From Lachnospiraceae bacterium (lineage in GTDB: Bacteria; Bacillota; Clostridia; Lachnospirales; Lachnospiraceae), in assembly GCA_015057325.1 (NCBI GenBank), contig SVEQ01000008.1, positions 3,461 through 67,460 of the forward strand: a stretch of 64,000 nucleotides of DNA. Reading direction: 5' to 3'. The notes under the pieces are model-generated. The model was not told the origin of the DNA, did not search any database, and saw nothing but the letters and a program-made list of their open reading frames with translations. How positions within the stretch are numbered: the stretch's first letter is position 1; every line of letters begins with the position of its first letter. Made by a program: the position numbers and the translations under genes. Below are positions 22,290 through 38,013 of the stretch, in pieces.

Positions 22290-22535
22290 ATGGCAGCAAC
22301 CAATACACAGCAGATCGATAACTTAGTTAACATGTTAGACGGATATGTAGCAGAAGGTGGATATCACCTTAATGTTAACGTACTTAACCGTGAGACATTA
22401 TTAGACGCTCAGGCTCATCCTGAGAACTACCCACAGCTTACAATCCGTGTTTCAGGATACGCTGTTAACTTCATCAAGTTAACACCTGAACAGCAGGCAG
22501 ACGTTATCTCAAGAACATTCCATGAGTCTATGTAA
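22290..22535 (+). CDS. Autonomous glycyl-radical domain of PFL (GrcA/YfiD-like)
   Basis: 81 residues after AAAGGAGGACGATGTA. The sequence matches the last ~80 residues of standard [41 protein letters not shown], then RVSGYAVNF with radical Gly56, and a conserved end ([13 protein letters not shown]). In Escherichia coli YfiD/GrcA is a stand-alone spare domain that rescues oxygen-cleaved PFL. Here the core enzyme has no such domain of its own, so this protein should be obligatory. It is the last gene before a strong terminator. Confidence 0.93.
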
Positions 22536-22562
22536 TTAACTTCGAGATAAACTATATTTCAT

Positions 22563-22595
22563 ACAGGCAAGGACGTCGTCCTTGCCTGTTCTTTT
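22563..22595 (+). terminator. Terminator of the pfl operon
   Basis: ACAGGCAAGGAC and GTCCTTGCCTGT form a perfect 12-bp stem with a three-base loop, followed by TCTTTTCT. Confidence 0.93.
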
Positions 22596-22626
22596 CTAAA
22601 TTGCTATTTAATGCACTTTTATTCTT

Positions 22627-23223
22627 AACGGACGCGTATAGATTATCAGATATATGCATATCCTGTGTCAGAATGTCCGGTGCTAAGAGGTTGTAGGTAT
22701 GCCGATTACACTTTCATATAATACGCGACCGGCTATCAATTCGCCATCGTGGCTCAATGATGCCTTGCTCGCCATCCATGGCTCGCATCGCTATGTTAAT
22801 CACGGCATACCAACAACCTCTAAACACCTACCATATTCCACAGGATATTGCACACACAGATAATCTCACGCTGTTTCGTTATGTACGAAAGTGCATCAAA
22901 GCAGCCAACACGTAACGTTCGCGATGATGCGAGTCGCGTGCGTCAGCTGTTTGGGTACATTTTGAACCAACAGACAGCATAATGAATTGTTGTGTATTAC
23001 ATTCTGGGTGACATTCAGGAGGATATTAGAGTTTCTTGGTATTACGTTGAATATACAGCGGATGCCGAACATGGATGTTCGGCATGTTCCATTGAGACAG
23101 GATGTCGAATTGGAACAGTGCCGCGTAATATAAGAAAACTGTTCCGTAATACCTAGAAACTCTTATGTCCGTATGTCTCGTCACACAGAATGTAATATAT
23201 CGACAATTTGTTATGCGTCCGTT
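22627..23223 (+). ncRNA. Candidate large structured non-coding RNA, about 600 nt
   Basis: No gene fits this stretch, but it is full of nested helices. AACGGACGCGTA (22627-22638) pairs with TATGCGTCCGTT (23212-23223) and closes the region. Domain 1: 22640-22647 with 22859-22866 (8 bp), 22658-22666 with 22840-22848 (9 bp), 22679-22704 with 22803-22828 (23 of 26). Domain 2: hairpins at 22874-22890, 22902-22949 and 22947-22973. Domain 3: 22977-22992 with 23201-23216 (16 bp including three G-U), 22995-23006 with 23186-23197 (12 bp), 23008-23012 with 23180-23184, 23028-23046 with 23145-23163 (18 of 19), then a three-way junction with hairpins at 23062-23085 and 23085-23117. The G-U pairs exist only if the + strand is transcribed. 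The size is like ROOL/OLE-class RNAs, but I cannot assign a family. No convincing promoter was found. Confidence 0.8.
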
Positions 23224-23245
23224 TTAAAATGTAACTAAACAGCAA

Positions 23246-23677
23246 TCACACAAATGCCTTCATCTCGCACATCAGGTCCTCTTCCGTTTTGATGAGTTTC
23301 TTTGCAAGATGCACACTCTCCGGCGACGCATCATCATATTTGTTGAGGTATTCCGATACGGACTGGATTCCCATGTTGCAGCCGTCCATAATAATCTTGG
23401 CAATCTGACTGGCGTCATCTTTGATGAGAAGCTTTGCCTCCGTGCTTATCCAAGACATTGCAGATGCCATAATGTTGGGCCTGTCCTCGGTTTTTCCGTA
23501 GCGTGCCAACTGGTCTCCTGTATCCTTCTCAAGTCTTTCGTGCTCTAAGGTGTAGCTTTTTAATATGTTATCAAGCTTATCGTCTTCCACAAACTCCTTG
23601 ACCTGCTTCATGCTGTTTATCGCCATTTTGCAGCCTTCATTTACTTTATCAAGTAGATTTAATGTCTGTTCTGTCAT
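23246..23677 (-). CDS. Ferritin-like four-helix protein (DUF2383-like)
   Basis: The start is ATG at 23677 after AAGAAGGATTATATT. A longer frame to 23728 lacks a site. 143 residues, all helical, with repeated amphipathic segments: NLLDKVNEGCKMAINSMKQV, LDNILKSYTLEHERLEKD, then SWISTEAKLLIKDDASQIAKIIMDGCNMGI and a final helix LAKKLIKTEEDLMCEMKAF (each quoted in part). Glu and His residues (EHERLE, TEEDLM) are placed as in ferritin-like superfamily members of unknown function. It may be involved in stress or metal handling. It is single-gene, divergent from the coiled-coil membrane protein. Confidence 0.65.
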   Translation of the reverse strand: MTEQTLNLLDKVNEGCKMAINSMKQVKEFVEDDKLDNILKSYTLEHERLEKDTGDQLARYGKTEDRPNIMASAMSWISTEAKLLIKDDASQIAKIIMDGCNMGIQSVSEYLNKYDDASPESVHLAKKLIKTEEDLMCEMKAFV

Positions 23678-23736
23678 AATATAATCCTTCTTTCTTATTT
23701 TTTCTCTATTATGCCCATTATCAAACAATTTATTCC

Positions 23737-37839: not shown

Positions 37840-37874
37840 ATGAACAACTCGCTTTTCCTTAACCCAAAAGCTAA

Positions 37875-38000
37875 AATGCCGGAATATGCGGGTAATCTGG
37901 CTTAGAGGAATCATTTATCCTCAATACAGTAATGGCGGTTGCACCGGATTCTCACCGGGTTTCCCCCTAATCTGACTTTTGTCAGAGCTATATTCCTATG
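37875..38000 (-). promoter_or_regulatory. Cobalamin riboswitch
   Basis: Reading the minus strand: GGAATATAGC (P1 5'), a GACAAAAGTC hairpin, GGGGGAAACCCGGTGAGAAT, CCGG, then GCAACCGCCATTACTGTA, and finally GCCAGATTACCCGCATATTCC closing P1. These are the conserved B12-box elements of cobalamin aptamers (GCCACTG-like core and GGTGxxAATC-type loop). It controls the leftward operon 37733-30528, which should be shut off when cobalamin is plentiful. Confidence 0.93.
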
Positions 38001-38013
38001 AAATTACGAGGTA

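Follow-up and report, generated by a model that had tools for sequence, protein, structure and literature searches.

A mosaic palindromic repeat of Lachnospiraceae with inverted TwoAYGGAY motifs and predicted CsrA-binding hairpins

The window (the whole stretch of 64,000 nucleotides analysed here) very likely holds a dispersed repeat in which two copies of the RNA family RF01731 (TwoAYGGAY) are paired in inverted orientation. The explanation that we put foremost, at just short of an even chance, is that of a high-copy, mosaic, palindromic REP/BIME-like repeat which places predicted CsrA-binding hairpins at the ends of transcripts.

Identification and folding of the element

One structured RNA of about 600 nt had been proposed for this region by the first-pass annotation. 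The helices that it described were present, and three were checked base by base: 22627-22638/23212-23223 (11 Watson-Crick pairs and one G-T among 12), 22679-22704/22803-22828 (23 of 26 pairs matching) and 22977-22992/23201-23216 (13 Watson-Crick pairs and three G-T among 16). The region was also without a gene, as had been said, with no open reading frame (ORF) of 60 aa or more inside 22600-23250. The proposed extent, 22627-23223, was indeed structured, but its coordinates cut a longer unit, delimited in Table 1. In place of a single molecule with a closing stem, two adjacent hairpin units of opposite orientation were found, and the 12-bp "closing stem" is read as similarity between the bases of these two inverted units. 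The copy in the window consists of one A unit and one B unit.

Table 1. Features of the element in the window, with the unit types distinguished among its copies
Feature	Position	Strand	Sequence or basis
Whole interspersed element, 645 bp	22601..23245		Between TTGCTATTTA and TAAACAGCAA; ends set by 17 complete own-genome copies
Left terminal inverted repeat, 10 bp	22601..22610	+	TTGCTATTTA; copy comparison
Right terminal inverted repeat, 10 bp	23236..23245	-	TTGCTGTTTA on - strand; copy comparison
Hairpin unit type A	22601..22905	-	Outer end ..TTTAATGCACTTTT, inner end ..AAAGTGCATCAAAGCAGC; inner limit by eye; fold -112.9 kcal/mol
RF01731 TwoAYGGAY copy 1	22672..22835	-	Rfam, 106.4 bits
GGA-loop hairpin in RF01731 copy 1	22771..22782	-	GCCATGGATGGC; sequence
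Spacer separating the two hairpin units	22906..22943		Limits by eye
Hairpin unit type B	22944..23245	+	Outer end ..TTTAGTTACATTTTAAAACGGACGC read on -; inner limit by eye
RF01731 TwoAYGGAY copy 2	23014..23177	+	Rfam, 101.5 bits
First GGA loop of RF01731 copy 2, CsrA-type core	23069..23079	+	ACATGGATGTT; sequence
Second GGA loop of RF01731 copy 2	23097..23105	+	ACAGGATGT; sequence
Small-protein gene, stop codon touches element	23246..23683	-	145 aa from this ATG; 160 aa from upstream TTG
Intrinsic terminator-like site behind preceding pfl-linked genes, just left of element	22563..22597	+	Scan: 1 found vs shuffle mean 0.7
Unit A in copies			..TTTAATGCACTTTT..ACGGACGCG; RF01731 in typical units
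Unit B in copies			..TTTAGTTACATTTTAAAACGGACGCATA; RF01731 in typical units
Unit C in copies			..TTTAGTTACATTTTAAAACGAAACTTT; no RF01731 in loci tried

Both halves of the element matched RF01731 over its full length (positions 1-168 of 168; cut-off 43, scores in Table 1), and Rfam prints clan CL00106 for this family. In copy 1 the second loop reads CGA instead of GGA. The earlier proposal of a structured RNA was thus upheld for the core, with its RF01731 match in both halves, its covarying stems and its conserved GGA loops, but not as one molecule of about 600 nt. In the present genome the family forms one building block of a dispersed repeat made of inverted pairs. TwoAYGGAY was listed as a probable RNA, not cis-regulatory, in a table of 2010 (Weinberg et al. 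2010, PMC2864571), and the passages of that paper available to us make no mention of repeats or mobility in connection with it.

A stand-alone giant RNA of the ROOL/OLE/GOLLD kind had also been suggested, and the folding energy is extreme enough to speak for one: on the + strand, 22600-23250 (651 nt) folded at -267.9 kcal/mol, against a mean of -164.6 (sd 5.7) for 20 shuffles (z -18.1). The - strand, however, was nearly as stable (-266.5 kcal/mol, z -14.0), a known Rfam family occurs twice in inverted orientation, other copies hold other modules in either half, and promoter-like matches were at chance level (4 vs a shuffle mean of 3.4). An Rfam check for ROOL, OLE, GOLLD, HEARO and raiA returned none of these families, neither at the gathering threshold in the whole window nor at E ≤ 10 in 22500-23400. 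Because the family is already in Rfam, where the earlier annotation had thought it possibly new, and because the unit is dispersed in many copies and its modules are inverted, we consider a new giant RNA extremely improbable. A segment with the type B unit (22935-23245) folded at -141.3 kcal/mol, and the RF01731 sense strand gave the more stable fold in 39 of 44 motifs, with five against. Elsewhere in the window, a Cobalamin riboswitch was matched at 37871-38007 on the - strand (38.9 bits, cut-off 31.5).

Copies and mosaic composition

The host genome (G000; 3.05 Mb in 24 contigs, 99.3% complete) contained 25 RF01731 matches. Comparison of the copies gave sharp common ends, TTGCTRTTTA on one side and TAAACAGCAA on the other, and a search of this genome with extended ends recovered 62 of them (54 exact and 8 with one mismatch); allowing two mismatches added 7 more, probably mostly by chance. 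Complete elements within contigs numbered 17 and measured 385-829 bp, leaving out a decayed copy around L016 (C7:276.9-277.4 kb) and a lone end at C2:19920, which is the single unpaired end not close to the end of a contig and is itself a lone decayed C unit. Another 27 ends are close to the ends of contigs, so that the total may be about 30 elements. Internal ORFs of the copies reached 155 aa among those listed, at most four per copy, with flanking genes that run into the element set aside.

Each element follows the same plan, two inverted units of about 300 bp separated by a short spacer; L129 and L130 each have one truncated unit. Three unit types that share the 10-bp termini were told apart by reading the copy sequences (A, B and C; Table 1), and in some copies, such as L115, the apex of the A unit has been swapped for a nested B unit. 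The C halves of L126, L121, L112 and L114 matched no Rfam family at E ≤ 0.1, and we regard the C unit as a second structured module, distinct from the RF01731 units. Several individual copies had features of their own. The C-type hairpin of L126, L121, L114 and L128 in the own genome was about 290 bp long with the same termini and folded at -101.9 kcal/mol; B units of L112 and L127 carried an insertion of about 100 nt inside the RF01731 motif, which in L127 was seen as a 280-nt match (L003 1043-1322); and positions 120-246 of L126 (G000:C7) resembled a TPP riboswitch just under the cut-off (53.9 vs 54.3 bits).

The order within close RF01731 pairs was - then + in all 14 found among the 13 carrier genomes of the first RF01731 survey. 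Among the matches listed in a draw of 200 genomes, at least three further pairs, of which G135 had two and G086 one, showed this order, and a pair at G215:C36 was exceptional in being tandem; a class-level draw added one more - then + pair (G422:C47) and a second tandem exception, below the cut-off (G465:C1).

Placement relative to genes

Flanks were readable at 56 element ends, 34 from complete elements and 22 from cut ones. A facing stop codon lay 0-5 bp away at 17 of the 56 ends and at 10 of the 17 complete elements, as compared with 1.6% and 3.3%, respectively, of window intergenic positions (a background of 5856 positions, using ORFs of at least 90 aa). The stop fell inside the terminal repeat at three more ends, belonging to three more elements, which brings the stop-abutting elements to 13 of 17. 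Two complete elements touch stops on both sides. Seven of the 13 had their opposite end 19-31 bp ahead of a start codon, and thus many copies fit short intercistronic gaps; the abutment pattern may come in part from counter-selection elsewhere in tight operons. By tabulation, the sense RF01731 copy faced the abutting gene in 9 of the 13, not in all. In L112, L124 and L131 of the own genome, the genes seem to use a stop supplied by the repeat (frame TT GCT GTT TAG/TAA).

The gene at 23246-23683 (-) in the window has its closest orthologue at L148 (94% protein identity), where a C-type end lies at the same stop codon; no such element end was present at the stop of the other 11 orthologues. Same-gene matches led to rumen Lachnospiraceae MAGs. 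For copies that mostly have a single motif, the motif in the own genome was on the same strand as the upstream gene in 8 of 12 cases and on the opposite strand in 4, and L002 among them is half of a pair. In relatives other than G029, the upstream gene was on the same strand in 12 cases and opposite in 11, and the downstream gene was opposite in 18 of 26. In G029, of another genus (g5; loci L236-L246), RF01731 stood ahead of a same-strand gene in 10 of 13 cases, as a 5' leader would, so that placement is not uniform across genomes.

Such positions would suit a REP/BIME-like 3'-end element in which the hairpins act by structure (protection from 3' exonucleases, ribosome stalling at stops, or the setting of operon expression) and the GGA loops are incidental. 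The elements abut stop codons, seven of the 13 stop-abutting ones are intercistronic, and C modules without RF01731 take the same kind of place. The likeness to REPs and BIMEs lies in dispersed, intergenic, palindromic units of opposite orientation, some of them close to stops; the inverted arrangement is that of BIMEs (excerpts of PMC2817692), and ribosome stalling has been reported for E. coli REPs situated within 15 nt of a stop (excerpts of PMC12306157). REP units measure 20-40 bp according to a published abstract, however, against about 300 bp here. Of the 4,072 REPs counted for E. coli in the same excerpts of PMC12306157, only 446 come that close to a stop (within 15 nt), and abutment is therefore not general among REPs.

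The element could also be a mobile bidirectional transcription terminator, with a GC-rich stem followed by TTTT at the unit ends, whose copies replace native terminators. In many copies the B and C units end in ..GCGTCCGTTTT or ..GTTTCGTTTT after complementary bases, and the two copies with stops on both sides would fit this role. Several copies nevertheless separate two genes of the same strand, the second of which would be silenced by termination, and the terminator scan found none at the ends of the window element itself (short loops only), so that we hold this explanation to be very unlikely.

Orthologous sites and mobility

For 10 own elements, the flanking sequences were looked up in 25 genomes of the same genus. 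Seven of the 10 loci had an element at the orthologous junction in the sister genome G004; at the L129 locus the right flank was found without an element, and L122 and L126 gave no flank match in that genome. The unit type differed at 7 of 12 comparable ends between G000 and G004 (by eye). Two more distant genomes had element-like ends with other termini at the same stop codons: L205 as compared with L128, with RF01731 present, and L219 as compared with L134, L219 being cut by a contig end. Empty orthologous sites were found for L114 (in L196 and L197) and for L124 (in L190 and L191). Site L262 of G004 holds an element that is missing from the corresponding site of G000 (C6:68013), and the G004 site L257 was filled in both genomes (L121 in G000). 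In G004 a presumed leuC, an element and leuD are adjacent (L207); in G000 leuC and leuD each border element ends on different contigs (L134 and L291), which suggests either a rearrangement between copies or an assembly error at repeats.

These observations bear on the possibility of a selfish, non-autonomous MITE-like transposon, whose structure and loops would be recognised by a transposase supplied in trans and whose position at stops would result from counter-selection elsewhere in tight operons. ERIC, BOX and RUP are small repeats similar to MITEs. The element resembles all of these in being non-coding, with terminal inverted repeats and a high copy number (the 27 ends near contig ends included), and the sites of L114 and L124 that are unoccupied in relatives, together with the one occupied in G004 but not in G000, are what a transposon would leave. 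It departs from them in its conserved RNA core with GGA loops and in the lack of a target duplication of constant length: among the 17 elements, duplications were seen in 3 for k = 2, none for k = 3, one for k = 4 and none for k = 5-9. Against such a transposon stand also the absence of any long internal ORF among those seen and the sites mostly common to sister genomes, G004 being occupied at 7 of the 10 loci queried. Phages, plasmids and viral contigs were searched and gave no match. No autonomous partner with the same ends was found among the 17 complete copies or at the lone end C2:19920, the contig-end copies being unreadable. A match to a mobile element had been named beforehand as grounds for giving up the RNA reading; a multi-copy element with inverted termini was indeed found, but no transposase. 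We judge the MITE-like explanation improbable.

A RAYT/Y1 transposase would be expected from the comparison with REPs and BIMEs, but a search for Y1_Tnp (PF01797) gave no match in G000 or in G004. Mobilisation of the IS200/RAYT type is therefore unsupported here, PF01797 being the sole transposase family searched. Among the 13 carriers, this family was absent from six (G000, G003, G004, G010, G018 and G024) and present in seven (G002, G006, G007, G012, G013, G029 and G033).

Stem covariation and GGA loops

A covariance model (R1) was built from 25 sequences and used to search 95 loci, which gave 118 matches, 95 of them distinct; at 85% identity these 95 rows count as about 40. The check for compensatory changes in homologues that had been asked of the proposed helices came out in favour of the stems, with changes on both sides in 49 of 54 pairs and a covariation score of 0.434, as compared with 0.137 after shuffling and 0.064-0.111 for the slid controls. 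The model misplaced the second hairpin (helix 6, 38% paired), and the covariation of that hairpin is therefore understated. Template switching could also keep the arms of palindromic DNA matching, and for this reason covariation is by itself no proof of RNA.

The G-U pairs that had been taken as a sign of RNA rather than of a DNA palindrome proved a weak argument for the strand, because A-C cells were nearly as frequent: over the 54 pairs in the 95 distinct motifs there were 226 G-U and 188 A-C cells, and one conserved G-U pair by itself supplied 80 of the former. In the well-aligned helices P1 and P2, G-U cells numbered 147 vs 56 for A-C, or 67 vs 56 without the conserved pair.

The pattern CA(N)GGA(N)G was found on the sense strand at least once in 91 of the 95 motifs and at least twice in 85, and on the antisense strand in none (mononucleotide-shuffle mean 0.15 per motif); this comparison is not independent of how the motifs were collected, as the consensus of the family model holds these loops and sets the sense strand. 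The first loop was GGA in 90 of the 95 motifs and the second in 64, the latter being an undercount, as the simple finder used overlooks some. The CA(N)GGA(N)G pattern is that of a CsrA site, and judging from the letters, GGA hairpin loops with ACA..GU-like flanks would fit a CsrA-binding RNA. The same pattern had led others to propose TwoAYGGAY as a CsrA-binding RNA (PMC4333381, 2014/2015, in the part of that paper available). Retention of the pattern in 91 of 95 motifs is left unexplained by hairpins that act through structure, as is a core that spans many genera while the termini differ. With these points set against the placement at stops described above, we consider a REP/BIME-like element with incidental loops possible but rather unlikely.

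Counting any GGA hairpin on both strands, the 17 elements had 2.3 per kb and the rest of the window 1.6 per kb, a slight excess, by a generic scan that fails to register the A-type hairpin and three-base loops. The C-bearing copy L121 yielded no GGA hairpin. Because the C halves tried lack RF01731 and no such hairpin was seen in L121, the whole element is not built only for CsrA.

Proposed function

CsrA-binding RNA placed by a mosaic repeat is the best-supported function for the element, as a prediction to which we give slightly less than an even chance. If transcription of a gene runs on into the element, the sense unit would fold into a long hairpin topped by CsrA-type GGA loops. The host's CsrA, encoded beside a fliW-like gene, would bind these loops, so that the 3' end or the intercistronic part of the mRNA would be tied to CsrA; alternatively, the mRNA may join a dispersed CsrA sink. 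Owing to the inverted pairing, one sense copy would be presented whichever way the element is transcribed. The copies would have been spread in the past by a mobiliser and may now swap modules or recombine with each other.

The element is like CsrA decoy RNAs of the CsrB/RsmZ kind in having two CsrA-type GGA hairpin loops (binding being predicted) and unlike them in that those decoys come from one sRNA gene, as compared with 25 dispersed copies here. In the titles, abstract openings and passages that made up our view of the literature, no description of a repeat like this in Lachnospiraceae or of a transposable CsrA sponge was found; the parts are already known, and it is for their combination that this material held no earlier description. 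In eukaryotes, repeats that scatter the binding sites of one regulator can rewire gene control. If the prediction is true, a bacterial repeat with a two-site CsrA-type core, frequently paired in inverted orientation and next to stop codons, would make the repeat-borne spread of post-transcriptional networks testable, and the orphan family TwoAYGGAY would gain a place and a function.

Host range

The csrA gene of G000 lies at C7:307509-307667, after a gene that we take to be fliW-like. RF01731, CsrA and flagellin were surveyed in an even draw of 200 Lachnospiraceae genomes. RF01731 was carried by 35 of about 200 genomes, spanning many genera; at most 13 candidates per genome were scored under strict filters, and carriers may be missed. 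CsrA was above the cut-off in 108 of the 200 genomes and flagellin was present in 110. With kinship ignored, CsrA was found in 34 of 35 carriers vs 74 of 165 non-carriers (Fisher 1.8e-9) and flagellin in 35 of 35 vs 75 of 165 (Fisher 6e-11); G217 was the carrier without a CsrA match. Because the presence of CsrA and that of flagellin differ in only four genomes, the link to CsrA is inseparable from motility.

A wider version of the preferred reading, which we put forward tentatively and regard as rather unlikely as a whole, is that RF01731 pairs are retained in inverted orientation because CsrA loops are then available on both strands; dispersed across the genome, they would together act as a sink for CsrA and would secondarily bring mRNA 3' ends (5' leaders in another genus) under the CsrA-FliW circuit of motile Lachnospiraceae. 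At the level of the class, RF01731 was matched in 36 of 391 evenly drawn genomes (27 with a match over the cut-off), and 30 of the 36 lay outside the family.
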